A stretch of DNA of 38,943 nucleotides from a virus, in IMG/VR virus record IMGVR_UViG_3300047185_000016, positions 1-38,943 of that record; one strand, given 5' to 3'. The notes beneath the pieces are model-generated. The model saw only the letters and a list, made by a program, of their open reading frames with translations, made no database searches and was not told the DNA's origin. Shown here in pieces: positions 10,654 to 38,943 of the stretch (positions within the stretch are counted from its first letter, which is position 1; every line of letters begins with the position of its first letter). The translations under genes were made by a program, and so were the position numbers.

Positions 10654-11898
10654 CTACGCGGAGATCAGCGCCCGGCCGTTGCCGCCCGGGTTCGTCGACA
10701 GCATGTTGAAATAGCCGCCAACTCGGATTTCCTCGGCGTCCTCAGTCGAAACGGTGATCAGCCCGCCGTCGTTCGCGCTGTAGTCGAGCAGACCGACTGC
10801 GGGACCGAGGCTCTTCACCTTCCAGGTGCTCGGATCGATTGCGTAGGCGTCCGTTGCCCCGCACCCGCGATCCGCCAGCACGAGCGACTCAGCGCCACCA
10901 CCCGAGATGCGGATTCCTGAGAATCCGATCGTGGCCTCGCCGATCTTGATGTCCGCCTTCTCGTAGTGAACCTTTCTTCCGAGCGCGCTGTCGAGCTTGT
11001 CGTACGTGTCGGGGTGAACGATCGTGTACTTCGGGTCACCGCCATTCTGCGCGACGGCGGAGACGAGGTACTTGACCGCTTCCTCGAGCGAGTAGGACGA
11101 CAAGTCGACGTACACGCCTGCGAGCCGGGTGCGGTCGTACGAGCGGTTCTGCGCCATGAAGCTGTCCGATCCGCCGACCGTGGTGGGCAGCCAGCCGCGA
11201 AGGCCGGTGTGCAGCGCCACGCCGAGATCGCCAGCGCGGGCAATGTACAGCCCCGCAGTCCATCCGGTCGGAGTACCCGCAGCGCCGGTCGCCGTGGCCG
11301 AGACGGTGAACGTCTGCGCTCCCCAGGATCGGTCGACGCTGATCACATAGCCGACTGCCGACCCGGCGGTGACGGCAACCGAGGTGGCCGCATCGCAGAC
11401 CACCAACGCCATCCCGACCTCGATCTGGGCCGTGCCGGTGAGGTCGACGAACGTGCTGACACCGGTAGAGAACGACGCGAGTTGGCCAATGATCGGCGTG
11501 CCCGTTGCGAACACGACGCGGCCCAAGAAATCGCCCGCGTCTTTCAGGGCGTCCTTGATCCGCATGTCGAGCAGATCAGCGAATGAGGCCATGTTGTCCT
11601 TGCTGGCCTTGATTTCCTCTCGGGTCAACTTGGCCATGGAGTAGTTCGGGTATCGCGTGACCACGAACTTTGCGATCCCTCGATTGAACGCCATGCCGGC
11701 TTGCGCCGTTGCGAATGTGGCAGAACCACCACCGGGACCAATCCCGAACTTCACTGGCACGACGACCGTGCCATCGCCGCCCCAGCTTTCGTCCTTCGGC
11801 AGGAGGGCCAGCAGTGGATTGCGCCGAAAAACAGCATCGACCATCCGCTTCTCGTAGATGGTCTTACACGCCTTTGCGAGCTCCGCTGAAATACCCAT
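10654..11898 (-). CDS. Major capsid (coat) protein
   Basis: The 414-residue product follows the scaffold gene and precedes the decoration-like gene, the normal coat position. N-terminal features fit podoviral coat proteins: an initial helix, AKACKTIYEKRMVDAVFRRN, then PLLALLPKDESWGGDGTVV. This is followed by a strand and glycine-rich loop region (about residues 50-70), then NYSMAKLTREEIKAS (residues 85-100), as in many HK97-fold coat proteins of this gene order. Downstream are the long-helix region (FADLLDMRIKDALKDAGDFL) and a beta-rich half. The start has a strong Shine-Dalgarno (GAGGTGA, four bases before ATG). A perfect hairpin follows the stop. I did not confirm the fold by alignment. Confidence 0.85.
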   Translation of the reverse strand: MGISAELAKACKTIYEKRMVDAVFRRNPLLALLPKDESWGGDGTVVVPVKFGIGPGGGSATFATAQAGMAFNRGIAKFVVTRYPNYSMAKLTREEIKASKDNMASFADLLDMRIKDALKDAGDFLGRVVFATGTPIIGQLASFSTGVSTFVDLTGTAQIEVGMALVVCDAATSVAVTAGSAVGYVISVDRSWGAQTFTVSATATGAAGTPTGWTAGLYIARAGDLGVALHTGLRGWLPTTVGGSDSFMAQNRSYDRTRLAGVYVDLSSYSLEEAVKYLVSAVAQNGGDPKYTIVHPDTYDKLDSALGRKVHYEKADIKIGEATIGFSGIRISGGGAESLVLADRGCGATDAYAIDPSTWKVKSLGPAVGLLDYSANDGGLITVSTEDAEEIRVGGYFNMLSTNPGGNGRALISA

Positions 11899-11924: not shown

Positions 11925-12776
11925 CTATGCGTGACCGCTCAGGATTGCGACCACTTCCTCTCGGAGATCGAGGCGTGGCCTCTTGGCTCCGAGATCATTG
12001 GTCAGTGTCTTGCTCGATCCGTTCGTGGCTTCTGGCTGGGCCGGAATCGTGTCTTTTTCTTTGGGTGTCACTTGGCTAGAGAACTTCTTCGTGGCTAGGA
12101 TCTGCTTCGCTTCCTCTTCGAGGTGCGTTTCGACGACCTTACACGCCTCGTCAATATCGATAAGCTCGCCCGTCGCCTTGTACGCCTCGCTGATCACGTC
12201 GAGCACGAGGGGCGACTGCTTCTTCAGGTGCGTCAGCTCGTATGTCTCCGCGTTCTTCTCGATATGCTCCGTAACACGCTGAGCAAACCGCTGAAGGTCC
12301 TCGTTCTGTTGCGCCTGGAGCTCCTTCTTCCGATTCTCGAGCCCCTTCTGCTCGAGCTCCTCAAGTTTTGCCTCGAGTTGCCGCACGCGGAAATCGGCGG
12401 AGAGCTCGCCCTTCTCTGACAGTGCGCCCTTGATGTCATCGGGCTTGACGCCGAGCAGCGACAGCGCAGCGAACAGGGCACGTTGTGGATCGGTCTTCGC
12501 GGCTTCCTTCAGTTCGTTCAGCCGATGGACCTCTGCGACCTGCGCCCTGATTCCCTCGGCTTCCTTCGCAAGGTCGGCCTTTTCTCTGGCCACCTTCACC
12601 TGAAAAGCGGTCTCTCGCTTCGCGATCGAGGCGAGGCGCGCGGAGAACTTCGGGTCTTCAGCCGGTTCGACTGGAGTCTGTTCGGCGGGCTTGGTCTCGT
12701 CCGGCTTCGTCTCGGGTGCCGGGGTCGGTGTTTCGGTGGGGGTGCTCGTGGTCTCGGTCGTCTCTGTCTCGGCCAT
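11925..12776 (-). CDS. Scaffolding protein
   Basis: The 283-residue product is highly charged and lies directly upstream of the coat gene. After a Thr/Pro/Glu-rich N-terminal tail (residues 1-45) it is nearly all predicted helix: SARLASIAKRETAFQVKVAR, a long Glu/Lys/Gln coiled-coil (LRQLEAKLEELEQKG-like, residues 125-165) and a basic Arg-rich C-terminus (AKRPRLDLREEVVAIL). This composition matches phage scaffolds, which fill the procapsid and leave before packaging. A GTG six codons upstream (12794) is open, but GAGAGGA stands about ten bases before the ATG at 12776, so I chose that start. An 18-base conserved motif lies between this gene and the portal stop. Confidence 0.8.
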   Translation of the reverse strand: MAETETTETTSTPTETPTPAPETKPDETKPAEQTPVEPAEDPKFSARLASIAKRETAFQVKVAREKADLAKEAEGIRAQVAEVHRLNELKEAAKTDPQRALFAALSLLGVKPDDIKGALSEKGELSADFRVRQLEAKLEELEQKGLENRKKELQAQQNEDLQRFAQRVTEHIEKNAETYELTHLKKQSPLVLDVISEAYKATGELIDIDEACKVVETHLEEEAKQILATKKFSSQVTPKEKDTIPAQPEATNGSSKTLTNDLGAKRPRLDLREEVVAILSGHA

Positions 12777-12793: not shown

Positions 12794-12811
12794 CCCAAGA
12801 GTACGCACGAG
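12794..12811 (-). repeat. Conserved intergenic 18-base motif, copy 1
   Basis: Read on the minus strand this is CTCGTGCGTACTCTTGGG. It begins four bases after the portal stop and ends 17 bases before the scaffold ATG. Two other copies exist at 14828-14845 and 17497-17514. It may be a late promoter element or an RNA-level signal. Confidence 0.7.
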
Positions 12812-12814
12812 GGC

Positions 12815-14614
12815 TCAGGCGATCGGCAGGATGTCAGACGTGGGCGGAGCGAGAGGCACGGCCATTGGTTCGACAGAGGCATCAGCCAGACCCGGTACTG
12901 CGGCCGGAGCCGGGGGTTGCGCTTGCTGTTCGAGGTCGTCAAGCTCCGAGAGATACTCACGAAACTTGTCCAGCCGGTCCTCTGGTAGATTTTGCTGACG
13001 GTAAAGGTGGTAGTACTTGAGGCACAGGATCCGGGCCTGCTGGAGATTGTCGAGCGCTTGCGGCCCCTGGTAGTACTCCTGCTCGACCGCCATTTTCTCG
13101 AAAATCATATGCAGGACGTTGACTGGGGCGAGATCGAGGTCTGTCTGCTGGTCGAGGTCCGGCATGTCCAACATTCGCTTTGCCGTGTCCGTGTCGATGT
13201 AGTTCGCCTGCGCGAGTTGGGAAACCGACTCGAGCCGACCTGGAAAATCACGCGGAAGGGCAGACGCGGGGGAGCATTTGAGTTCGTACTGGTCCTCGTC
13301 GAGCTTGACCTTGCCCCACTCGACCTGGTCGAGGAAGCGACGGCTCACCACTTTGACCCGATAGCTGCTCTTGATCTCCTTGATGACCCGGATCGCGAGC
13401 TTCACGGTCTGGACGTAGAGATCCTCGTATAGTGACTGGATGTAAATCCACCGATCAGACTCTCGGTCCCCCTCGGCCATGATTGCCCGGCCGGAGTCGA
13501 GACCGGGCGGCTTCACGCTGCCGGCCGAGAGCTCGGAGATCCCGGCCAACCGGTACGCCTTCGACGCGAGGTTTTCCAGGTGCTCGTAGGTACCCGGGGC
13601 GAGCACAGGAGGAACTCCCCAGGTCGGCGCAGTCGGGCCGCGGTATCGGATGATCGTTCCAATCGAGTTGTCGAATTTCGAGCTCGACACCTCGCAGTCC
13701 TCGGGTAGGAAGACTTTGAACGATCCGGCCAGGTGGTACGAGCGCGAGATCGTCCAGAGCACTTTGTTGATCTCGGTTTGGATCGGAAGGATCTGCTCGA
13801 CTAGTGACTGAGCGTAGTACCCGAACATGCGGCGCGCAAAGGAAACACGAGCGAGAGGAAACGAGTCATACTCATACTCTTCGTCTACTAGGAGCACGGA
13901 GCCGCAAGCGATGACGTGCCGGCCGTCGTCGGCACTCTCCCCGCTCGGCAGGTGCCACGCCTCAACCACTTCACGGATTTTGCTCGCTGCCTGGTCCCTG
14001 TCCGACGTGAGCGCGGCAACATCGAGATCGCTCGCCCTCTCCGGGAATGCGGCCTTGAGCACCTCGAAGTCCAAGATCTTCGGCCGGAACATCGTGCGGG
14101 GCTCGGCCAGCATCGTCTCATCTTTCGGGACGTAGATCTCTGAGGCAGGTACGCGCTCCACCGCCACCCGATTCCCCTTCCGGTACACGTGCAGATAACC
14201 GTCCGCGAGCACGGCCGCGTCTTTGAACACCTCGATCCCGACCTTGTGGGCACCGATCTCAGAAAAGAGACCTTCGACGAATTGGTTGAGCTGGCGTGCC
14301 TTGTACTGGATCTCCCAGTTTCCTCGCGTCGTGATGAACGTGGGAAGGGGGCGGTTGCGCGAGAGCCGGCTTACCAGAGAGTCAATGCAACTCTGAGTGA
14401 CGTTGAACGTGAGGCGCTCCGTCAAGAGCTGGACCACGCGCGCCTGAGAGAGCGAGTTCATCTCCCACGGCACGTCGATCGTGTTGCCGTAGATCTGGAC
14501 GGCTTGGCTGTAGCGGCCGAACCGATCCGACGCCTCCGTACGCAGGGAAGCCATCTGCGCCTGGACCGCCAGAGCGAGCTGCTCGTCATCATTCTCGTAC
14601 CAGTAGCGCATCAT
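12815..14614 (-). CDS. Portal protein
   Basis: The 599-residue product lies between the terminase genes and the scaffold, the invariant portal position. It starts MMRYWYENDDEQLALAVQAQ and has portal-like features: an N-terminal helical clip region with FGRYSQAVQIYGN, a long wing/stem region, KVLWTISRSYHLAGSFKVF, and a C-terminal tail with PPAPAAVPGLADAS. Length is within the podoviral portal range. The start overlaps the upstream 71-residue gene by ATGA, so translation is coupled. It forms the dodecameric ring through which DNA enters and leaves; that is family knowledge, and only the pattern is seen here. Confidence 0.85.
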   Translation of the reverse strand: MMRYWYENDDEQLALAVQAQMASLRTEASDRFGRYSQAVQIYGNTIDVPWEMNSLSQARVVQLLTERLTFNVTQSCIDSLVSRLSRNRPLPTFITTRGNWEIQYKARQLNQFVEGLFSEIGAHKVGIEVFKDAAVLADGYLHVYRKGNRVAVERVPASEIYVPKDETMLAEPRTMFRPKILDFEVLKAAFPERASDLDVAALTSDRDQAASKIREVVEAWHLPSGESADDGRHVIACGSVLLVDEEYEYDSFPLARVSFARRMFGYYAQSLVEQILPIQTEINKVLWTISRSYHLAGSFKVFLPEDCEVSSSKFDNSIGTIIRYRGPTAPTWGVPPVLAPGTYEHLENLASKAYRLAGISELSAGSVKPPGLDSGRAIMAEGDRESDRWIYIQSLYEDLYVQTVKLAIRVIKEIKSSYRVKVVSRRFLDQVEWGKVKLDEDQYELKCSPASALPRDFPGRLESVSQLAQANYIDTDTAKRMLDMPDLDQQTDLDLAPVNVLHMIFEKMAVEQEYYQGPQALDNLQQARILCLKYYHLYRQQNLPEDRLDKFREYLSELDDLEQQAQPPAPAAVPGLADASVEPMAVPLAPPTSDILPIA

Positions 14615-14826
14615 GCTCCCCTGAGGGTCGGATCGAACGGACTGGACCAGAGCGTGAGGTCGGGCTCAGGCTCTTCCGGAACCGCGGACAACTGAGACAG
14701 AGGCCGCGTCGTCATGTCGGCCGGCTTCCCTTCGTTCATCCGGATCACGACGTCTCCGATAGTCAGCTCCAGCACGCCCTTGGCCCGCATGAGGTCGACC
14801 AGCTCTGCGATCTCCGACACCGTCAT
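14611..14826 (-). CDS. Small protein between terminase and portal
   Basis: The 71-residue product starts MTVSEIAELVDLMRAKGVLE, then LTIGDVVIRMNEG. A short protein with a helix ('E-L-V-D-L-M-R-A-K-G') followed by a strand pair, and a Trp/Phe near the C-terminus (LWSSPFDPTLRG), recurs between large terminase and portal genes in phages. Its function is unknown. It is preceded by the second copy of the 18-base motif, which ends one base before the start codon, leaving no room for a Shine-Dalgarno. It ends with ATGA over the portal start. Confidence 0.6.
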   Translation of the reverse strand: MTVSEIAELVDLMRAKGVLELTIGDVVIRMNEGKPADMTTRPLSQLSAVPEEPEPDLTLWSSPFDPTLRGA

Positions 14827-14827
14827 G

Positions 14828-14845
14828 CTCAAGAGTACGCACGAG
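14828..14845 (-). repeat. Conserved intergenic 18-base motif, copy 2
   Basis: Minus-strand CTCGTGCGTACTCTTGAG fills the whole space between the large-terminase stop and the next start codon, with one base left over. It differs from copy 1 at a single base. Confidence 0.7.
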
Positions 14846-16306
14846 CTACCATTCGTCCTGCTCGAGGACCCTGGCCCAGGCCCGATCCTCGGCAAAACTC
14901 GGGTCGGTCCTGGCGCGGTCCCGGTCGATCGCGGCCTGGAGAAGCTTCGCCTCCTGCCATTTCGTCGTCCCTGCATCCGGCTTTTCCTCGATCGGCTGCT
15001 CCCGGTAGGCTCGGCTGTGCCGGTAGGCGTAGACCAGCATATCGAGGGCGTCCGAGTGGAAGCGATCCGAGACGACCTTCTTGCCGTTCTTCTTCACCTC
15101 CCACTCGAGACGCAGAGCATCCTGAGCACACCGTGAGTCACGGGGCAGAAACAACTGCTTGGTCCGGAGTGCGTCGTTCACGAGCTGGATGGCCATGTTC
15201 TTTTCGGCCTTCTCGGCCGGCTCGACCCAGATCTGGAAGCGGCTCGAGATCTCGTTGAAGATCTTCTTCCCGAGTCCGCCGTGGTCCCCCACCATCCGGT
15301 ACGGCTTCCACTTCGCGCGCATGCGCTTGACTACCGTGGCGAGCTCGCTCACGCTCTCCTTGGCGATCACCTCTTCGTCGAGCAGGTAGAGCTCGGTCTC
15401 GCCCGGCCGGTTGCCGAGTACACCCACCGCGTCAGAGTCGTCGAATCCGACATCGACGGCGAGCACCGTCTGCCAGTTCGGGCACTGCGGCACCGTGTCG
15501 ATTCCATTCTTCTCTGGGTCATACTTGAACACGAGCGAATCCTGGTCCGTCACCCATTTTCCGAACCACTCACGCAGGATCGACGGATGGTCAACAGTGA
15601 CGCCACGGACCTTCAGCACCTTGTCGAGCATCTCCCGCCATAGCGGCAGGTAGGGGTTCTGCGCTACGGTCCATTCGTGGTGACTCCAGTCCGGAGACTG
15701 GCAGATGTCGTAGAAGAAGCCGGTGGGCACGGGCGACGGCGTGCCGATCAGCCGGATGCAGCCGTTGAAATCCATCAGCGACGGCATCAGCACGTCCGTG
15801 ATCAGTTCCTCGAGCGTGCTGTCAGGGATGGCCTGCGACTCGTCAATCGCGACGCGCCCCCAGCCCGTGCCTCGGGCCTTCTCGATCTCCGATTTGTTGT
15901 CGACTCCCCCTAGGATCAGGCGCTGCTCGCCGTCCCGATAGAATGTGAGCTCCGCCTCGTTCGTGTCGAACCCGAGCTGGTAGTTTGCGTTGAGTCTCTT
16001 CACGGTCGGCCAAATGATGCGCTTGGCCGTGCCTCGGGTCAGCGTGAGGTAGAGACTGGGCCCACTGTCCTCATTCAACGCACCGTCAACGAGCCACGAA
16101 GCGACACCCCTGGACTTCCCAGCGCGGCGCGAGCAGACCCCAGTTGCGAAGTTCGATCGATCGGCCACGAAATCGTATTGCTCACGGAAGAGAGAGGCTT
16201 CGAGGTCGAGCTTGCCCGGATCGAGGAGCACCCGATCAATCTCCGCCTTCTCTCTACGAGTGAGGGTCGGGAGTTTCGCCTGTATCTGTTCCCAGGTCGG
16301 GTCCAT
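14846..16306 (-). CDS. terL: Large terminase subunit (DNA packaging ATPase/nuclease)
   Basis: The 486-residue product cuts phage DNA and pumps it through the portal using ATP. Seen in sequence: a Walker A loop CSRRAGKSRG near residue 58, a Walker B site RVAIDESQ near residue 156 with the catalytic acid, and an RNase-H-like nuclease region opening with VLAVDVGFDDSDAVGVLG near residue 275. The C-terminal KVVSDRFHSDALDMLVYAYR carries the last nuclease acid (about residue 445). Length is normal. It overlaps the small-subunit gene by 53 bases, so the pair is coupled. The start ATG has little Shine-Dalgarno, in line with that. Confidence 0.9.
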   Translation of the reverse strand: MDPTWEQIQAKLPTLTRREKAEIDRVLLDPGKLDLEASLFREQYDFVADRSNFATGVCSRRAGKSRGVASWLVDGALNEDSGPSLYLTLTRGTAKRIIWPTVKRLNANYQLGFDTNEAELTFYRDGEQRLILGGVDNKSEIEKARGTGWGRVAIDESQAIPDSTLEELITDVLMPSLMDFNGCIRLIGTPSPVPTGFFYDICQSPDWSHHEWTVAQNPYLPLWREMLDKVLKVRGVTVDHPSILREWFGKWVTDQDSLVFKYDPEKNGIDTVPQCPNWQTVLAVDVGFDDSDAVGVLGNRPGETELYLLDEEVIAKESVSELATVVKRMRAKWKPYRMVGDHGGLGKKIFNEISSRFQIWVEPAEKAEKNMAIQLVNDALRTKQLFLPRDSRCAQDALRLEWEVKKNGKKVVSDRFHSDALDMLVYAYRHSRAYREQPIEEKPDAGTTKWQEAKLLQAAIDRDRARTDPSFAEDRAWARVLEQDEW

Positions 16307-16745
16307 TGGTCAACAGGGCCTTGATCCGGCTTGCCCTCTCACTGTCTGTGAACAGCGGCTTCCCGTCCGAGGTGATGTCCTTCTTCTCGGGCGCGTCGAG
16401 GCCGAGGAGTTTCGCTCTGCGGTCCTGGCAATTGAGCATGATCTGGAGATAGCGTGGGTCTCCGCTGCTCTTCTTGCCGACACTCCGATGCCATGCGTCG
16501 AACGCCCGTGAGTAAATGCCGTCGATCCGCTCAATCTCGATTTGCCTGATCTGCTCGGCGCCCTCGAGCGCCTGCTGTGCCGCGAGCTTCAGGTACTTCG
16601 CCACATGGTCGTAGGCGACAGTGAAATCGATCCCGACGATCTCCCCGATCTCGCGATATTGCTTACCGGCAAGCCGAAGCTCGACGCATTGCCGCGCACG
16701 TTCAATCGCTCGCGCTCGCTCGGGTGTCGACCTGGTACGAGGCAT
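16254..16745 (-). CDS. terS: Small terminase subunit
   Basis: The 163-residue product has an N-terminal helix-turn-helix-like region (RARQCVELRLAGKQYREIGE, then VGIDFTVAYDHVAKYL), followed by a long helical oligomerisation segment (AEQIRQIEIERIDGIY and further) and a short acidic tail. This is the usual form of small terminases, which bind the packaging site and stimulate the large subunit. It lies immediately upstream of and overlaps the large-subunit gene. AGGTGA stands four bases before the ATG and is shared with the stop of a 21-codon frame upstream. Confidence 0.8.
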   Translation of the reverse strand: MPRTRSTPERARAIERARQCVELRLAGKQYREIGEIVGIDFTVAYDHVAKYLKLAAQQALEGAEQIRQIEIERIDGIYSRAFDAWHRSVGKKSSGDPRYLQIMLNCQDRRAKLLGLDAPEKKDITSDGKPLFTDSERASRIKALLTNGPDLGTDTGETPDPHS

Positions 16746-17069: not shown

Positions 17070-17489
17070 CTATTTCCTCTCTGTGAACAGGAACGGGTTG
17101 TACGTCGCGTCAGGAAACCGATCGAGCAGTCGGCGCGTCTCGTCGTTCCACGCCGTTGTCGTCACTGTGCGTAGATCGACTCCGGACGCTTCGACTAGAT
17201 GGCTGCCAATTCCGAAGGAGCGTAGGGATTCTTTTACGAATAGCCAATGGATGAGCTCCGGCTCAAACACGATGCAGCCAAGGATCGTGGTTGGGTCGCC
17301 CTCGTAGACCGCGATCAGCGTGGTCGCGCGCTCGTAGACCGACAGCATAATCGGCTTCGCGTGCCGAAAAAACGGGTCGGTCCGCATGCGTTTGTAGGGG
17401 AGGCACTGGCGCAGGCCGCGCAGCCAGACGCTGAAGACAAACGGCTCGTCTGCCGGGATGATGGGTCGTATCTGGATCTGGTCGGCCAT
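17070..17489 (-). CDS. GNAT-type N-acetyltransferase
   Basis: The 139-residue product resembles a GNAT acetyl-CoA-dependent acyltransferase. Seen: an N-terminal beta strand IQIRPIIPADEPFVFSVWLR, a strand ILGCIVFEPELIHWLFV, and ESLRSFGIGSHLVEAS, which fits motif A (R/Q-x-x-G-x-G/A) as Arg-Ser-Phe-Gly-Ile-Gly. The C-terminus is short. A family of such proteins with a 'W-L-R' helix and 'H-W/Y-x-F/Y-V-K' strand occurs next to phage terminase genes; the substrate is unknown. The start at 17489 was chosen because it sits just after the third copy of the 18-base motif. A longer frame upstream is out of register with the gene before it. It could modify a host protein, a small molecule or a defence component; none is shown. 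Confidence 0.65.
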   Translation of the reverse strand: MADQIQIRPIIPADEPFVFSVWLRGLRQCLPYKRMRTDPFFRHAKPIMLSVYERATTLIAVYEGDPTTILGCIVFEPELIHWLFVKESLRSFGIGSHLVEASGVDLRTVTTTAWNDETRRLLDRFPDATYNPFLFTERK

Positions 17490-17496
17490 GTCTACA

Positions 17497-17514
17497 CCCA
17501 AGGGTACGCACGAG
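17497..17514 (-). repeat. Conserved intergenic 18-base motif, copy 3
   Basis: Minus-strand CTCGTGCGTACCCTTGGG lies between the stop of the sigma-like gene and the acetyltransferase ATG. With two flanking bases (TG at its 3' end) it matches copy 1 over 20 positions except one. Confidence 0.7.
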
Positions 17515-17517
17515 CCC

Positions 17518-17790
17518 CTATTCGATTTTCGCGTCCGCGTAGGAGACGGTGGATATCCTCCGGCGACGGACCAAATCCAGCATCCGACTGCGGACGCAAA
17601 AACAGCACCAGGCTGACAAAGGCATGCTCGTGCGTCGACGGTCGAACTTTCGGATCGCGACCAGGACGTGCTCAGCGATCCAGCCATCGAGATCGTCCAC
17701 GTCGTCGATCTGGTCACCGAAACGGCGGAGCAGATACCCGCGGACCCGGCCAACGATCAGCATCACCTCGGGGTCTGGGCGCCGTCGCAT
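17518..17790 (-). CDS. Sigma-70 region-2-like small protein
   Basis: The 90-residue product resembles the core-binding and -10-recognition region of sigma-70 factors. Seen in order: LIVGRVRGYLLRRFGDQIDD, DLDGWIAEHVLVAIRKFD, then a basic linker and LSAWCCFCVRSRMLDLVRRR. The pattern 'F-D ... S-A-W-x-x-x-x-V/I-R-x-x-x-L-D-x-x-R-R' is the usual region 2 signature. No region 4 helix-turn-helix follows, and the frame stops soon after, so it is either a truncated sigma or a regulator that reuses this fold. It overlaps the RusA stop by one base. It lies early in the leftward unit, upstream of the late genes, where a regulator of late transcription would be expected. The assignment is a family-level inference. 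Confidence 0.5.
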   Translation of the reverse strand: MRRRPDPEVMLIVGRVRGYLLRRFGDQIDDVDDLDGWIAEHVLVAIRKFDRRRTSMPLSAWCCFCVRSRMLDLVRRRRISTVSYADAKIE

Positions 17791-18323
17791 CAGGCGCTGT
17801 CAGGGATCGGGGTTTCTTGGTGCGCGTCTTCCCAGGCCGAGGAGCCACGGTAGTCGCGCGCGCTGGAAACGAGCTGGGCGCGGCGCTCGAAGTCGGACGA
17901 CGCCTTTCGGAGTGCGAGCTCGGCCGCGGGGAAAACGGGAGAGAATTCCTGAGCGGGTGAGGTCCAGTGGCGGACGCAGATCTCGACGCGGGTCCGCTCA
18001 CGGTCGGTGCAACGTAGGACCTCGAGCCGCTGGATTTGCGCGTCGTCGAGGTAGACGATCCCGTTCATCGCGTCGAGGGTCGACTTCACCGGACCGTCGA
18101 TATCGGAGCGACTGGTCCGGAAGACGAAGCGGAGTAGGACTTCGACTGGGCGAGCGTAGGGGCGCGCACTACGCATCGCCTCTAAAGCGAAAATCTGGAC
18201 CGCAGCTTGGTAGTCCCTGACTTCCCTGGTCTTGGTCAGCCCGGCCCGCTTCCCAAGCCTGACGACCCGGTAGGTTTTGTTCACCCCGATCGGCTTGACC
18301 GGCACCTCGAAGCGGATGTTCAC
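17790..18323 (-). CDS. rusA: RusA-type Holliday junction resolvase
   Basis: The 177-residue product cleaves four-way junctions, clearing recombination or replication intermediates before packaging. The first about 110 residues carry the RusA pattern: FEVPVKPIGVNKTYRVV, a Lys/Arg-rich stretch, then SDIDGPVKSTLDAMNG and IVYLDDAQI, containing the conserved Asp residues of the active site. The last about 60 residues form a charged tail not usual for RusA (typical length about 120). Start: GTG at 18323, with AAGGA six bases upstream and GTGA overlap with the previous stop; an upstream Met frame runs through another gene. It overlaps the sigma-like gene by one base at its end. Confidence 0.75.
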   Translation of the reverse strand: MNIRFEVPVKPIGVNKTYRVVRLGKRAGLTKTREVRDYQAAVQIFALEAMRSARPYARPVEVLLRFVFRTSRSDIDGPVKSTLDAMNGIVYLDDAQIQRLEVLRCTDRERTRVEICVRHWTSPAQEFSPVFPAAELALRKASSDFERRAQLVSSARDYRGSSAWEDAHQETPIPDSA

Positions 18324-20823: not shown

Positions 20824-21039
20824 TCAGGCGGCGCGATTGCGTTTGGGGGGCTTCTCGTCCCAACAGGAGGCCGGAACCTCGCCACCCGTGACGCGCTCGA
20901 TCTTCAGAGCGCTCGAGCGGCCTGGACAACGGGCGCCAGACAAGCACTGGCAGACCATGGATACCGAGATGCCTGCCTGGGTCGCAAACTGGCGCTGCGA
21001 CAGACCGTGCCGCTTGAGATATCGAGAGAGAGCGTTCAT
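20824..21039 (-). CDS. Cro-like transcriptional regulator
   Basis: The 71-residue product begins MNALSRYLKRHGLSQRQFAT and has a helix-turn-helix: QRQFATQAGISVSMVCQCLS. This is the pattern of Cro/YdaS-type regulators. It is the first leftward gene and diverges from a repressor-like gene 93 bases away, with operators in between. It should bind those operators and favour lytic growth. The ATG lies seven bases after a -10-like box, with no Shine-Dalgarno, so the mRNA would be almost leaderless; a Met three codons upstream (21048) lies inside the promoter and is unlikely. It ends with a basic stretch (PPKRNRA). Confidence 0.75.
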   Translation of the reverse strand: MNALSRYLKRHGLSQRQFATQAGISVSMVCQCLSGARCPGRSSALKIERVTGGEVPASCWDEKPPKRNRAA

Positions 21040-21046
21040 GTCGCGC

Positions 21047-21075
21047 ATATTCACAGGTGTGCACAGACAAGTCAA
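21047..21075 (-). promoter_or_regulatory. Leftward early promoter of the Cro-like operon
   Basis: On the minus strand TTGACT and GAATAT are 17 bases apart. The -35 box matches five of six consensus bases, the -10 box three. The operator at 21050-21064 lies in the spacer and touches the -10 box. Transcription would begin near the ATG at 21039, drive all leftward genes and be blocked by a protein bound to the operator. Confidence 0.65.
21050..21064 (+). promoter_or_regulatory. Operator 1
   Basis: TTCACAGGTGTGCAC. It lies in the leftward promoter, between -35 and -10. It is one of three copies of TTCACAGGYGTGC in the switch region and probably binds the repressor and the Cro-like protein. Confidence 0.7.
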
Positions 21076-21092
21076 GACTGGCGTCCGGACCC

Positions 21093-21107
21093 GCACGCCT
21101 GTGAACA
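21093..21107 (-). promoter_or_regulatory. Operator 2 (inverted copy)
   Basis: On the minus strand TGTTCACAGGCGTGC, the same core as operators 1 and 3 with T to C at one position. It lies just upstream of the repressor-like gene and may control its autoregulated promoter. Confidence 0.65.
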
Positions 21108-21131
21108 CGCCTTGCCTGTAGGGTCGCTGGT

Positions 21132-21455
21132 ATGTCGAATCTGACGACCGCCGAGGTCGAGGCCCGGCGACATTTTCTTGAATGGTTCCTGTACTTTCGC
21201 CAGTCCTTCTACGTCGATGAAGGGAAGCCGGACCGGAAGTTTGCGGCGGACCTGGGGATCTCGCCGAGCTACATCACGCAGGTGCGGTCCGGCGACCGTG
21301 GAGTCGGTTTCGATGTGGCGCTAAGGATGCGGCACTTTTTCAAACGGAACCTCGACGAACTTGCCTTCAGCGACCCGCCTCGTTTTGCGCTTCAGCGCCC
21401 ACCAAGCCAGCCAGAGCGCCCTTTGACTCGGCCGACTCGACGCATGGCCAGGTAG
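21132..21455 (+). CDS. Phage repressor (CI-like) with helix-turn-helix
   Basis: The 107-residue product contains DRKFAADLGISPSYITQVRS, a standard helix-turn-helix, and is divergent from the Cro-like gene. No peptidase domain follows, so it is a short repressor without self-cleavage, unlike lambda CI. It should maintain lysogeny by binding the TTCACAGGYGTGC sites. The C-terminal 30 residues are Pro/Arg-rich and flexible. The start is near-leaderless: a weak -10-like TAGGGT is seven bases upstream (as in lambda cI from its maintenance promoter), though AGGG also could act as Shine-Dalgarno. A terminator follows at 21505. Confidence 0.75.
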   Translation: MSNLTTAEVEARRHFLEWFLYFRQSFYVDEGKPDRKFAADLGISPSYITQVRSGDRGVGFDVALRMRHFFKRNLDELAFSDPPRFALQRPPSQPERPLTRPTRRMAR

Positions 21456-22800: not shown

Positions 22801-23207
22801 CCACCGGAGTATATTCACCCACAGAGGAGACAGCCATGATCCAGATCGATCGGGAAACCGCATTCCGTCTCGCCGCGACTACTCTCCCCGAACTCGAAGA
22901 GCTCGCGCACCAGCGACCCGAGATCGCTCCGCTCGCGTACCAGATCCGCGACTACCTGGACCCGTCGATCCGAAATTGCCAGGCGTTCCGCGACGATGCT
23001 CGCGCAATCGGCGAGCTCTCCCGAGCGCTCGAAATGGCGGCACGGCTCCTCGGCGTTCCAATGGCCCTCGCGAGGGACGGTGGGCACATCGGCGTGCTCG
23101 CCAGCCTCCGGACCTCGCTCGTCTCACTCGCGGCCACTCTGCTGGGCAAGACGCTGCCTAACCAGGAGCCGATCCTCCTTTCGTCGGCAATGCGAGTCGC
23201 GCGATGA
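22797..23207 (+). CDS. Early helical protein, unknown function
   Basis: The 136-residue product is helical throughout (RETAFRLAATTLPELEELAH, LAYQIRDYLDPSIRNC and further helices). A second Met at residue 14 (22836) has a stronger Shine-Dalgarno (GAGGAG) than the one at 22797, so the true start may be either; the first overlaps the previous stop by ATGA and has AGAGGTG. No family recognised. Confidence 0.5.
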   Translation: MTTGVYSPTEETAMIQIDRETAFRLAATTLPELEELAHQRPEIAPLAYQIRDYLDPSIRNCQAFRDDARAIGELSRALEMAARLLGVPMALARDGGHIGVLASLRTSLVSLAATLLGKTLPNQEPILLSSAMRVAR

Positions 23208-23419
23208 CCGTCCTCTCCAAACGTCCTCGCCATGCCTGCGATTGGTGCTACGAGGCTCTGCCGGCACAGATCTACACCGTGCTCCTGCCCTCGGGCATAC
23301 AGGCGCTCGTCGGCCAATGCTGCGCGCGCCCAGCCGCTCTATCGATGCGCAATTCGCACGCCGCGAAGATCTCCAGGCGCGGGAGCGAGCTCCTTACGAT
23401 CCTGGAGGCCCGGTCATGA
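23204..23419 (+). CDS. Small Cys protein, early region
   Basis: The 71-residue product has CDWCYEALPAQIYTVLLP and QCCARPAAL, giving four Cys in a zinc-ribbon-like arrangement with a long strand pair between, and a basic helical C-terminus. ATGA overlaps at both ends. Confidence 0.55.
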   Translation: MTVLSKRPRHACDWCYEALPAQIYTVLLPSGIQALVGQCCARPAALSMRNSHAAKISRRGSELLTILEARS

Positions 23420-23661
23420 GCTCGCCGACAATCGAGCAGACCTGTGATGGATGCAGTAGCGAAATCGAACCTGGCCGGTATCGCACGGTCGGGGGCGCGG
23501 TCTACTGCGACAGGTGCGCACCGTTGCGCGCGGTGCGCGCGCTGGAAGAGGAGACCTTCGGCCGGGTCGCATTCTCCGACCTAGCGCGAGAGGCGCTCGA
23601 CGTGCTCCGAATCGTCGCGGCCGAGATCGGATCGAGCCAATGGCAACGGAGAGCGCCATGA
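23416..23661 (+). CDS. Small zinc-ribbon protein
   Basis: The 81-residue product opens TCDGCSSEIEPGRYRTVGGA followed by VYCDRCAPL: two CxxC pairs 19 residues apart, a classical zinc ribbon. A helical tail with a Glu-rich start follows. It may bind DNA, RNA or protein. Both ends overlap neighbours by four bases. Confidence 0.55.
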   Translation: MSSPTIEQTCDGCSSEIEPGRYRTVGGAVYCDRCAPLRAVRALEEETFGRVAFSDLAREALDVLRIVAAEIGSSQWQRRAP

Positions 23662-26585: not shown

Positions 26586-27037
26586 TCCACTCGTTTGCCA
26601 GTGAGGTCCGATTCCTCTCTCCGCGATCACTCGCCACGCGGTGGGACTGCGCACGCTCGACGGTCTACGCCGAGCTTGCCAGGATGCGGCAACTCGGGCT
26701 CTACTCCGGGATCAGGGTCGGTGCAGATCAGCGCGTAGCGATATCGGCAATCGAGGCGTACGAGAGATGCCGCGAAGCGGACCAGACACTTACCGTAAAT
26801 GGCGGGTCAATGAAGCGCGCCTCGGGCACATCCGGAATGGGATCTACTGGATTGATCGCACCGTCCACGGTCGTCGATACCGGATCAGCACGGGTTGTCG
26901 AACTCCAGCGGCGGCCATATCGGAGTACCAGAGATTTGAGATCGACCCTGCGCGATATGTACCGCGCGGCAAGGTCGGAACTCTCTGGGATCAAACGGTC
27001 CCGCTCTTCCTGCGGTACTCCGAGGCGGGCCGACTGA
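26582..27037 (+). CDS. Excisionase-like helix-turn-helix protein (long overlap with integrase)
   Basis: The first 65 residues have FLSPRSLATRWDCARSTVYA, a helix-turn-helix of the kind seen in excisionases and MerR-like regulators, followed by a strand pair with GADQRVAISAIEAYE. The rest (residues 65-151) is Ser/Arg-rich, reads like another frame of the integrase, and may not be a folded domain. It lies just before the integrase, the normal place for an excisionase, and overlaps it by about 270 bases. The true C-terminus is uncertain. Confidence 0.55.
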   Translation: MIHSFASEVRFLSPRSLATRWDCARSTVYAELARMRQLGLYSGIRVGADQRVAISAIEAYERCREADQTLTVNGGSMKRASGTSGMGSTGLIAPSTVVDTGSARVVELQRRPYRSTRDLRSTLRDMYRAARSELSGIKRSRSSCGTPRRAD

Positions 27038-27819
27038 ACTCTAGCCGCTGGGTGAACACTCAGGAAGCGTGTCTTGCCAACTTCGGCGCCTTCGGGCCCG
27101 GCTCGGCGCGGGCGTTCTACTCGCTCGACGCATTCACTTCGAGCGACGTACGGTCCTTCGTGGAGGGTCTCACCTCGGGGAACGTGACGGGCAACCAGGT
27201 GGGACCTTCGACGGTCAACCGTCACTTGGCGTCACTAAAGGCGTTCATGCGCTGGGCGAGGGCTGAGGGGCTCACGATGAATCGGGTTGACCAAGAGGTA
27301 CCGATGCTCCGAGAGGACTCCGGAGTGAGGTTCCCGACCGAGGTCCCCGGCCCGCGGTGGCGCGCGATCCTGGCCAAGCTCGATCGCCGATGGCGCTCCG
27401 CCTGTGAGGTCATGCTCGGCGCCGGCCTGCGCTACGGCGAGGTCGCCCGGCTGGTCGCTGAGGACATTCACCCAGGGGGGATCCATGTCCCGAGGGCAAA
27501 AAGCCGGCGAGCAAGGACAGTCCCGTGCTCTGCCCGCACCGTGGCCGCCGCGAAACTGACCGTGAAACTCGGAGGTGTCCCCGATGACGAGGCCAGCCAG
27601 ATCGATCACCGGATCCGGGTCGCTGCTCGAGCAGCCGGGGTGGACCCGTTCGCCGCTCACGAGCTCCGCCATACCTTCGCCACGACCTGCCTGCGGCGCG
27701 GGCTCGACCTCCGGACGCTCCAGGCCTGGCTCGGTCACGCCAGCATCCGGACTACCGAGCGCTACCTGCACTCCCTCTCCGTCGAGCACCCGCCGGCTCG
27801 CCGGCTGGCCCCGCTCTGA
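26767..27819 (+). CDS. int: Tyrosine-type integrase
   Basis: The 350-residue product integrates the phage at attP by the tyrosine recombinase reaction. Seen: an N-terminal beta region with NGIYWIDRTVHGRRYRISTG, a core-binding helix region, and the catalytic set Arg (GAGLRYGEVARL), Lys (PRAKSRRA), His-x-x-Arg (HELRHTF), His (LGHAS) and Tyr (TTERYLHSL). All six conserved residues are present. The start at MPRSGPDTYR (26767) follows the helix-turn-helix of the upstream gene; an earlier Met (26641) would make a non-homologous leader. attP follows 178 bases after the stop. Confidence 0.9.
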   Translation: MPRSGPDTYRKWRVNEARLGHIRNGIYWIDRTVHGRRYRISTGCRTPAAAISEYQRFEIDPARYVPRGKVGTLWDQTVPLFLRYSEAGRLNSSRWVNTQEACLANFGAFGPGSARAFYSLDAFTSSDVRSFVEGLTSGNVTGNQVGPSTVNRHLASLKAFMRWARAEGLTMNRVDQEVPMLREDSGVRFPTEVPGPRWRAILAKLDRRWRSACEVMLGAGLRYGEVARLVAEDIHPGGIHVPRAKSRRARTVPCSARTVAAAKLTVKLGGVPDDEASQIDHRIRVAARAAGVDPFAAHELRHTFATTCLRRGLDLRTLQAWLGHASIRTTERYLHSLSVEHPPARRLAPL

Positions 27820-35665: not shown

Positions 35666-36112
35666 TCAGATGGAGCTTGATTGACCAGACACAGTGCCCA
35701 GTATCCGGACCGTAACTTGCGTTCCAGCACTCACCGTCACGCCGTTGGCGGCCGGGAGAATGCGCCCTCGTGGCTGGAGCATCTCGAAGGTGTTGGCGCA
35801 ACTCGTCTTCCCCGCGCAGCCCGCAAGGCTCCACGAAAACTTCACCGGATCGGCCAGATACCAGCCCGCCGTCGTGTCGCGAAACCAGAGATCGATCGTC
35901 CCGCCCCCGGAAAGCGTAGCTGTCCCGGGCGTCGTCACGGGCACAAGGACGACCGTGAACGCGATCATGCGCATCCCGTCGATACCCTCAGTCACTAGGG
36001 TCGGCGCAGCGCGGGTTAGGTTTTGCGCCTCGACCAGGTCCCGCTTTTGAAAAGCGTCAGGACAAAACCCCACCAAAAAGAGCGTTGCAATGGTTAGGAC
36101 TGCTTTTCTCAT
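35666..36112 (-). CDS. Small secreted or virion-associated protein with signal-peptide-like start
   Basis: The 148-residue product begins MRKAVLTIATLFLVGFCPDA, basic then hydrophobic, like a signal peptide. The rest is beta-rich with VVLVPVTTPGTATLSGGGTI and a Cys pair (AGCAGKTSCANTF). It lies between the HNH gene and the tail fibre. Its Shine-Dalgarno (GGAGGT) is encoded inside the 3' end of the HNH gene. It could be an accessory fibre subunit or a secreted protein. Confidence 0.5.
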   Translation of the reverse strand: MRKAVLTIATLFLVGFCPDAFQKRDLVEAQNLTRAAPTLVTEGIDGMRMIAFTVVLVPVTTPGTATLSGGGTIDLWFRDTTAGWYLADPVKFSWSLAGCAGKTSCANTFEMLQPRGRILPAANGVTVSAGTQVTVRILGTVSGQSSSI

Positions 36113-36645
36113 GATAGACCTCCAGTGATACGTCTCGCAGATCGTTCGCTGCCCTTCGGAAAATTCAGCGTTGCAAAGTCCTTGAAAAGCGCACGAGCCT
36201 TGGCGTCGTAGACTCGCGCCGCCTCCTCGGCGATCCCGAAGCGGCCGAGGCGGTGTTGATGGCCATCAACCTTGATTACCGCCCGCCATTTCTGGGTGCA
36301 TGTTTCCCAATGGACGCCCTTGTAGCCACTAGTGTTGTTGGACTGGAGTCGGCGGTTGCGGTTGTTCTCTTGGTGGGTGGCCGGTCTCAAATTCGATCTT
36401 CGGTTGTCGAGTCCGTTGCCATTTTTGTGGTCGATCTCGGACGGATGTGATTCTCCGGGATGGGCACGACGCCATACCGCAGTATGAAGGCGCTCCATTG
36501 TTTTCCGGCCGTCTAAAAGACGGACGTTCCGCTGCGCATACCACGTCTGTCCGAGCAACCGCGTCTGCCAGTTTGACGATGCCAATCCAGCATCAACGTC
36601 GTCGATGATGGCAACCTTGCCCTGTGTCAGCGGAATCAAAAACAC
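36109..36645 (-). CDS. HNH/AP2-type homing endonuclease (copy 2), inside the virion operon
   Basis: The 178-residue product is paralogous to the protein at 29980: ERLHTAVWRRAHPGESHPSE, IDHKNGNGLDNRRSNLRPAT and a C-terminal AP2-like GYKGVHWETCTQKWRAVIKV with ARVYDAKARALFKDFATLNF. It stands nine bases after the internal virion gene and overlaps the next gene by four, so it uses the operon's signals. It may be a self-spreading element that has been kept because it does not break a gene. Confidence 0.8.
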   Translation of the reverse strand: MFLIPLTQGKVAIIDDVDAGLASSNWQTRLLGQTWYAQRNVRLLDGRKTMERLHTAVWRRAHPGESHPSEIDHKNGNGLDNRRSNLRPATHQENNRNRRLQSNNTSGYKGVHWETCTQKWRAVIKVDGHQHRLGRFGIAEEAARVYDAKARALFKDFATLNFPKGSERSARRITGGLS

Positions 36646-36654
36646 GTCCGTCTC

Positions 36655-38943
36655 CTATGACATCCGCCGTTCGGCGGCAGTGAGTGATCGATCTCCCAAA
36701 CTGAGCTTGATCGCGCGTGGCCTCGGGTTGACCTCCGACTGCGGCTGCGCCTGGTACGCCTTCTGAACGCTCTGCATGAGCCGGCGATCAACATCGGTGC
36801 CTCCCAGCAAGAGTACGAGCGAGCGTCGAGCCGAGTAGGAAAGTTTCGGATTCGGTCCCAGACTGGCCACCCGATCGATCAGCGATTGCTGGATCTTCTG
36901 GTAGAGCTCGGGATGGACGACCTTCACGGCCTGTACTGCCTTGGCGTTGAGCCTGCCCCGCTTCGCGTCGGAGAGAATCGTCATCGGCTTCGACACGGCC
37001 CGCCACTGCGCCGCGAAGTCCACGCGCTCTTGGACCGTCGTCTTGCGCTTCGGACCGAACGGATTGATGCCTTGTGGCCGCGCCTGCTGGGAGAGGTACT
37101 GCACCGCCCGGCTCATGGTGCCCTGCATAGCTGAAGAGGTCATCGGAGCATCGGATTGCATGTCCTGGGTCGCGCGTGCCGCCTGCGCAATCATGCCCTC
37201 GGGATTGCTCGCGAGTGCTGTGATGCGCTCGACGCGCCGCTCGTGCTGGCGCTCGGATGGCACCTTCCAAGTGCTCGACGCGGCGCCGCGGACCATGAGC
37301 CGTCGCGCGCTCTCGGCGGTACCCTGCACGGCCCGCGTCCCCTGGAGGCGGACGAGCGCCCTCGCCGCGCCGTCGATCCGGGCCGTGACCTTCTTCCCCG
37401 CCTTCTCCAGCACGACTAGGGAATGGACCGCCGTGGGAACCTCTACCCTTGCCCCGAAGGCCATCTTGCCGATCGCGAGCGCCGCCTTGCCCTCCTCGGT
37501 CGAGGCAATGGCCTTCAGGCCCGCCAATCCAGCGGCAATCGGGGCTACACCTGGAATGCCGAGCCGGCTGGCTCCATACGCGATCATCCCGAGCCCGGTG
37601 ATGTCTCGGCCGAGTCCGCCCGTGGGCGTAGCGACCGTCACCTCGCCCGCCTGACTGACGGGAGCTGCGCCGTACGACCCGTAGATCATCCGCTTGTCGG
37701 TGCCCTGCCGGAGCTGCGTGATCGCCGTGACATCTTCCGCCTGCTTGGTCAGCTCCTCATGCTTGGCGAGGAGGTCCAGAAAGTCGCTCTTGTTGACCGC
37801 TTTGACTGTTAGGTCATGTTGTGAATCGTCAATCGCATTGACCAGATTGCGCGATGCGTCGCGGAAGTCTTGGAGTATCTCGCTCCTGATCGCGCCCCGC
37901 TTGTCGTTTGTCTGGTTTAGGAAGGTGTTGACCTTCGTGACGTTCGGTTGAAGCTCCACTCCGCCCCTCACCTCGACGCGCTCAAGCAGACCATGCTTGC
38001 CCTTCATCCGCTTCAGCACGGAGGCATAGTCGGCCTGCGCCTGATCGAGTGCGGATTGCCGAGCGGCCTGCTGGCCCCACACTTGCGGATCTCGAAGGTA
38101 CTCGTTCAGATCGCGACGTAGTCCTCTCAGTTCCTTGACCGAGTTACGCTCGGTAAACGTGAGATCATCGAGTTTCTTGTAGGGAATCATGTCGTCAATC
38201 TGCTGACGAGCGCCCCGAAGCCGCTGGTACAAATCGGCCGCACCAGTGGGCTTAGTGAACGGTACGTGCGTCATGTCCCGCGCAATGCCTTCTTGCAGAA
38301 GCTCGAGTTGTCGGGCGTGCCCCTGACTGAACATGTCGACTTCGGATCGCATCTTAGCGACCGAGTCCCCGATCTTTTGTTGCCACCCCTGAAGGCCGGC
38401 CTGTTGCTCTACTGTCTGTGCCCCGGGCAAGAGCTTCTCGATCTCGACGGGCCGGACAGACCGATTGAACTCCTTGTTGACCGCCTCGATTGTCTTAATC
38501 TGCGTTCCTAGGTTGTCCGCGAAGTCGGAGAAGATCTTGTTCCGGAGCTCGGGATCTCGGATCACCTTGTCCCAGTTAGTGAGCAGTCGATCCGCAGTCT
38601 CGACACTTCCGACGCTTTGCAGCTTCGCACTTATCCCAGGGTCAACAGCCTCCATCTCGGCAAGCCGTGCCCGGTTTGCCAACATCCAATCGGTCATCTC
38701 CCCGGGGGCCTGCTCCCGAATGACTGCCTCGGCTTTGCCGGCGATCTTGCCCGCGCCCCACTCCAACCCCTGCCGCGCCTTGGTCAGGGCGACCTTCAGG
38801 CCCTGACCGCCAGCCGAGAGGCCGAATCCCGCTCCGAATCCCAGCGCTGCGCCAAGCCCCACGTTCTGCATGAGGGCCGAGGCCGAAAAGCCGGGATCTC
38901 CCAGGGCCTCCTCATGGATGGATTGCCCGAGCCCGTAGAGCGC
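36655..38943 (-). CDS. Internal virion (ejection-type) protein, C-terminal part, cut by window end
   Basis: The frame is open to the window edge: it begins ALYGLGQSIHEEALGDPGFS in register with base 38943 and gives 762 residues before TAG at 36655. Seen: a Gly-rich membrane-like segment GLGAALGFGAGFGLSAGG near its start, long helical regions (RLLTNWDKVIRDPELRNKIF), and a C-terminal FAAQWRAVSKPMTILSDAKR region typical of podoviral internal core proteins. Its N-terminal part is the frame at 1-500. Proteins of this family usually have a short stretch before ALYG that is not seen at either edge, which fits bases missing at the joint. Confidence 0.75.
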   Translation of the reverse strand, partial: ALYGLGQSIHEEALGDPGFSASALMQNVGLGAALGFGAGFGLSAGGQGLKVALTKARQGLEWGAGKIAGKAEAVIREQAPGEMTDWMLANRARLAEMEAVDPGISAKLQSVGSVETADRLLTNWDKVIRDPELRNKIFSDFADNLGTQIKTIEAVNKEFNRSVRPVEIEKLLPGAQTVEQQAGLQGWQQKIGDSVAKMRSEVDMFSQGHARQLELLQEGIARDMTHVPFTKPTGAADLYQRLRGARQQIDDMIPYKKLDDLTFTERNSVKELRGLRRDLNEYLRDPQVWGQQAARQSALDQAQADYASVLKRMKGKHGLLERVEVRGGVELQPNVTKVNTFLNQTNDKRGAIRSEILQDFRDASRNLVNAIDDSQHDLTVKAVNKSDFLDLLAKHEELTKQAEDVTAITQLRQGTDKRMIYGSYGAAPVSQAGEVTVATPTGGLGRDITGLGMIAYGASRLGIPGVAPIAAGLAGLKAIASTEEGKAALAIGKMAFGARVEVPTAVHSLVVLEKAGKKVTARIDGAARALVRLQGTRAVQGTAESARRLMVRGAASSTWKVPSERQHERRVERITALASNPEGMIAQAARATQDMQSDAPMTSSAMQGTMSRAVQYLSQQARPQGINPFGPKRKTTVQERVDFAAQWRAVSKPMTILSDAKRGRLNAKAVQAVKVVHPELYQKIQQSLIDRVASLGPNPKLSYSARRSLVLLLGGTDVDRRLMQSVQKAYQAQPQSEVNPRPRAIKLSLGDRSLTAAERRMS

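Follow-up and report, generated by a model that had tools for sequence, protein, structure and literature searches.

On the minus strand of the viral record IMGVR_UViG_3300047185_000016 from IMG/VR (positions 1 to 38,943; 'the window' below means this whole stretch of 38,943 nucleotides), a short gene at 17518..17790 encodes a protein of 90 amino acids (aa), MRRRPDPEVMLIVGRVRGYLLRRFGDQIDDVDDLDGWIAEHVLVAIRKFDRRRTSMPLSAWCCFCVRSRMLDLVRRRRISTVSYADAKIE, that carries region 2 of sigma-70 and lacks region 4. Its ATG overlaps the stop codon of a RusA-type resolvase gene (TGATG), and the gene order downstream runs through an acetyltransferase-like gene, an 86-aa gene, the small and large terminases, a 70-aa gene, the portal, a scaffold-like gene, the capsid and further structural genes. 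An earlier note on this DNA, made from the letters alone, had placed the gene ahead of the late genes, in agreement with its position before those for packaging, portal and capsid; the note named no strand, and the plus strand across 17518-17790 holds an internal stop. In lambdoid and related phages the late regulator sits after RusA and before the packaging genes, and the gene described here, flanked by the RusA resolvase gene and the operon for packaging and structure, occupies that usual late-regulator slot.

The pattern of sigma-70 region 2 that the same note had read in the product was recovered by a Pfam search of the 90-aa protein, which returned a single family, Sigma70_r2 (PF04542; E 2.5e-5), with residues 14-78 matching profile positions 7-69 of 71, i.e. 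63 of the 71, at 24.4 bits, just above the curated cut-off of 24 bits. NCBIfam models of extracytoplasmic function (ECF) sigma factors match over region 2 only (3e-7 for the relative described below), while phmmer and hmmsearch comparisons with PDB sequences retrieved no sigma. Upstream of the ATG the open frame continues for just three codons, so no N-terminal part is missing, and 12 residues separate the end of region 2 from the end of the protein, which has no sigma-4 domain; the short upstream frame and the early end together mark a complete region-2-only protein which, judged by its sequence, is not a full ECF sigma. Nor was region 4, reported as lacking by the earlier note, found elsewhere in the window: PF04545 gave no match, no candidate passed its cut-off, and the best was a weak, sub-threshold helix-turn-helix (HTH) in the small terminase.

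When phages and viral contigs were searched with the 90-aa protein, one relative emerged and no other, the L001/L003 protein, which is 90% identical, has the same length of 90 codons and outscores the window protein on Sigma70_r2 (26.4 bits). Between the window and L001/L003 copies the ratio of nonsynonymous to synonymous substitution rates (dN/dS) is 0.083, with 24 synonymous and 9 nonsynonymous differences among the codons that differ, and the gene is therefore under strong purifying selection and not a remnant. A Sigma70_r2 domain is encoded in just two of 49 related phage records, those of the window and L003; no further sigma-like copy was found at ~75 related loci anchored on the terminase, nor in 58 genomes from the phylum of one hit, a search that had no positive control.

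The region 2 fold that the note had expected of a structure prediction is also seen. The AlphaFold2 model, built on an input alignment of two rows, has three helices and is confident (pLDDT 84, pTM 0.71), and its five best Foldseek matches in the PDB, at TM values of about 0.5 and at E-values that are not significant, are all sigma proteins: in order, the sigma-2 domain of SigE, a Pseudomonas sigma-28, the sigma of a mycobacterial initiation complex (chain F), WhiG and T4 gp55 (7d7c). Alignment with E. coli RpoD and RpoE and with T4 gp55 shows that D403 of sigma70 is kept as D33, and both the acidic 2.2 helix and the basic RRRR end are kept in the 90-aa sigma-2 domain. In gp55 the acids that touch the clamp helices are E70, D74 and E77 (PMC7892883); E70 and E77 align with D33 and E40 of the 90-aa protein, giving two acidic counterparts for the three.

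Accompanying the gene is a 16-bp box, CTCGTGCGTACYCTTG, which occurs exactly at 17514, 14845 and 12811, always on the minus strand and oriented with the genes; counting one further copy with two mismatches, the window holds four sites, where chance would give 0.76 with three mismatches or fewer. Copy 1 (CTCGTGCGTACCCTTG, 17499..17514) starts 3 nt past the sigma stop, so the earlier note was right to set the gene next to one copy of a repeated motif, and ends 9 nt before the ATG of the acetyltransferase. Copy 2 (CTCGTGCGTACTCTTG, 14830..14845) takes up 16 nt of the 19-nt gap that separates the terminase stop from the following ATG, leaving no room for a ribosome-binding site, and finishes 3 nt from that start codon, which is where a leaderless message would have its -10 box. 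Copy 3 (CTCGTGCGTACTCTTG, 12796..12811) starts 3 nt past the portal stop and ends 19 nt before the following ATG. The exact copies as a set thus begin 0-3 nt past a stop codon and leave 3, 9 or 19 nt up to the ATG that follows; the weak fourth copy (36808..36823, minus strand) lies within a large gene with no clear operon downstream, is possibly due to chance and is not relied on.

All three sites carry the box in L003, as do both of the sites that the contig covers in L004. Of the 48 motif bases compared between the window and L003, all but 2 are identical and both exceptions fall on the Y, whereas four-fold sites have diverged by 32% (P 2.5e-6), so the box is conserved beyond neutral expectation; a GNAT row with misplaced L003 coordinates (35% identity) contributes 14 of the 572 sites and leaves the result unaffected. 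When the three window copies are aligned, their 16 bases agree (Y excepted) and the 40 bases upstream do not; hence no -35 box is conserved. A scan of all viral contigs found other exact matches only singly, and more than one copy only in the sister contigs of this lineage. Within the box, CGTA presumably resembles the -10 elements of some ECF sigmas, and TACYCT we take to fit the pattern TAnnnT. A scan for sigma70-type promoters found nothing at the boxes, and a de novo search for 14-mers shared among the gaps of relatives gave no convincing counterpart, a weak negative as the gene-start calls of the script also missed the known copies in the window.

On balance we favour the view that the 90-aa protein is a minimal phage late sigma factor recognising only a -10-like box. 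The earlier note had proposed a minimal sigma or an RNA polymerase-binding regulator that switches on late transcription, which is partly supported: sequence, fold, selection and gene order bear out the domain assignment and the location, and the proposed role is the best reading of the locus and fits the single-box motif, with the steps at the polymerase and the promoter being what we infer. The gene would close the early operon and be transcribed together with RusA before it; the 2.2-like helix of its product would attach, through D33 and E40, to the beta' clamp helices of the host's RNA polymerase; and the protein, needing no partner, would recognise and open the single -10-like box. No -35 contact is proposed because the protein has no region 4, and the agreement of just the 16 box bases, with nothing comparable upstream, is as expected of a sigma without that region. 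The three boxes would then act as promoters starting short-leader or leaderless late messages in three blocks, one from the acetyltransferase to the terminase, one from the 70-aa protein to the portal and one from the scaffold through the capsid to the tail.

T4 gp55, whose sigma homology is confined to domain 2 and whose promoters have no upstream or -35 element (PMC2988020), is the closest precedent for such a switch, and region-2-only control of late transcription is so far known mainly from this larger protein. Like gp55, the 90-aa protein is phage-encoded, has homology to domain 2 only and no region 4, and its putative late promoter consists of one box and lacks a -35 element. The two differ in length (185 aa against 90), the 90-aa protein being nearer by sequence to ECF sigma region 2, and the clamp-binding C-terminus of gp55 (SLDFLYE-like) has, by eye, no counterpart in the STVSYADAKIE of the 90-aa protein. 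The phages differ too, the present one being probably temperate and having the 16-bp box as its motif. Membership of the gp55 family (phrog_234) was considered and rejected: the 90-aa protein had no match at E 10 and the L001 copy none at E 1, with T4 gp55 as a control at 2.9e-69. A mechanism like that of gp55 in a protein outside the gp55 family by sequence would, by this analogy, be the simplest account.

Other systems share part of the picture. ECF (group IV) sigma factors supply, in NCBIfam, the best sequence match of the 90-aa protein through their region 2; unlike them, the protein is without a sigma-4 domain and the box without a conserved -35 element. RsoA of Bacillus subtilis is a separate sigma-2-only protein whose partner SigO carries sigma-4 (PMC8103513). 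As a standalone sigma-2 protein it is likened to the 90-aa protein by domain content, and it differs in having a sigma-4 partner, none being found above cut-off in the window. Phages phiEco32 and 7-11 encode a sigma and carry, in the gaps between late genes, short promoter motifs that are few in number and well conserved (PMC4331800), an arrangement like the present one of phage sigma and conserved motifs; they differ in encoding a companion anti-sigma factor and in a motif that is unrelated (tAATGTAtA).

Several observations weigh against a minimal late sigma. Only two close members exist, which is why functional residues cannot be read from conservation, and gene and motif are seen together in one lineage only. 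The Foldseek E-values are 0.48 or more, and none of the one-to-one comparisons of single-sequence profiles, made with gp55, RpoE and RpoD, reached significance. Of the sigma70 residues that contact the core from region 2.2, Q406 has become G36 and E407 has become W37 (gp55 has A and D there, and so is also without the Q), and the aromatic at residue 64 is not kept in the L001 copy. Finally, gp55 is twice as long and acts with gp33 and the sliding clamp, and no such partner was identified here.

Were the reading correct, region 2 by itself would suffice to guide RNA polymerase to a promoter, in a protein half as long as gp55 and lacking the sliding-clamp tail; the locus would offer a very small protein-promoter pair with which to ask what a sigma factor minimally needs; and the gp55 strategy would extend to temperate phages outside the T4 group. 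A bolder version, which we put forward tentatively and regard as doubtful, is that the 90-aa sigma-2 domain needs nothing else to confer promoter specificity, which would make it the smallest such factor known; it would read a single 16-bp box of -10 type and from it start leaderless late messages, in a temperate phage that has no relation to T4, with distant relatives keeping a sigma-4-like half in the same slot.

Those relatives bear on the question of a partner. Several of the ~75 terminase-related loci share the order resolvase or nuclease, slot protein, acetyltransferase, ~80-aa protein, terminase, ~80-aa protein, portal, and roughly half of the loci encode instead a protein of ~120 aa, in many of them just before the acetyltransferase (examples are L035:8811-9170, L008:8896-9258 and L072:7032-7379, besides about 30 other loci). 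No family match explains this protein; its predicted C-terminal helix-turn-helix is nearest to sigma-4 and LuxR-type domains, and its best PDB match is a SigF chain (probability 0.99, E 0.29). It is possibly a late regulator, and one genomic slot may, as a suggestion only, hold either half of a sigma factor across relatives. Half-sigmas may therefore be common there, which lends something to the view that the 90-aa protein is a region-2 co-factor needing a phage or host partner with a region-4-like domain, as RsoA needs SigO, with the box as only part of the promoter. We nevertheless think such a split sigma unlikely here: the ~120-aa protein has no relative in the window, the only region-4 match there is the weak small-terminase HTH, and no conserved second box stands upstream of the motif.

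Just as unlikely, in our estimation, is an accidental link between protein and box, in which the latter would be a 'stoperator' bound by a repressor, or a sequence conserved at gene boundaries. Short gaps near gene starts are also where stoperators and boundary linkers occur, and the box does begin within 3 nt of each stop codon; it is, however, asymmetric, all three of its exact copies lie within the late operon, and no copy occurs in the likely immunity region at 20950-21200, between two regulator genes, which has a different inverted repeat (TTCACAGGCGTG...CACACCTGTGAA). By eye, a weak TTGACT-17-GAATAT promoter accompanies this repeat between the divergent HTH regulators.

Somewhat less probable again is an antiterminator or activator of the lambda Q type, in which the sigma-2 fold would hold polymerase at a -10-like pause box and allow read-through into the late genes, with no role in initiation. 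The gene occupies the slot of a Q regulator, after RusA and before packaging, and the first box lies just downstream of it. To our knowledge, though, Q proteins have no sigma-2 domain; boxes two and three stand at gene starts inside the late operon, which suits promoters and not a single loading site of Q type; and terminator-like sites at the boxes in the late operon do not exceed the chance level.

Changes in some of the core-binding and melting residues lend themselves to a different idea, that of a decoy which would reprogramme the host by binding its RNA polymerase or one of its anti-sigma factors, the box being unrelated. PhyR is a precedent for a degenerate sigma-like domain serving as a mimic (PMC8103513). 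We consider this improbable given the position of the gene at the border of early and late regions, directly before the first box, and the retention of the basic RRRR end and acidic 2.2 helix. A decaying remnant of a full ECF sigma, as the missing region 4 and the barely passed Pfam cut-off might suggest, is scarcely credible, since purifying selection acts on the gene and its length of 90 codons is the same in both phages.

The genes that flank the putative late sigma, all on the minus strand, were assigned as follows. The RusA-type Holliday junction resolvase (17790..18323; Pfam RusA 9e-14, PHROG 140) lies directly upstream, and the first gene past motif copy 1 is a GNAT-like acetyltransferase (17070..17489; PHROG 3810, weak Pfam Acetyltransf_7). 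A probable small terminase with an HTH (16254..16745) owes its role to its position before the large terminase; its product matches phrog_645 (4e-27), labelled 'Rnase E', a label that is likely misleading. The large terminase (14846..16306) is supported by relatives and by tblastn matches to annotated large terminases. Past motif copy 2 lies the 70-aa protein (14611..14826), an open reading frame with a homologous start in L006/L008; in the distant relatives L006, L007 and L008, too, a protein of 70-80 aa without family match lies between terminase and portal. The portal (12815..14614; PHROG 156 portal, 7e-16) is followed, past motif copy 3, by a gene taken from its position to be scaffold-like (11925..12776), whose ATG has a Shine-Dalgarno-like AGAGGA, and by the major head protein (10654..11898; PHROG 14242, 1.3e-5).

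The window has no Rfam match and no tRNA. The phage is called probably temperate on account of an integrase (26641-27819) and of two small HTH regulators that diverge around 20824-21455 (the HTH reading partly by eye). At 22996-23661 a weak match to a DksA-like zinc finger (phrog_54, E 0.004) marks a possible second RNA polymerase-directed protein, and at 36109-36645 HNH_3 and AP2-domain matches indicate a homing-type endonuclease adjoining large genes that are unassigned. The upstream neighbour of the sigma gene differs between the two phages, being the RusA resolvase in the window (17790-18323) and an unrelated nuclease-like protein in L001 (645-1169); the two share a similar C-terminal stretch, LRKxSxDFERRAxLVSS, identical at 19 of 28 positions, and the pair reads as a nuclease swap with the tail retained.
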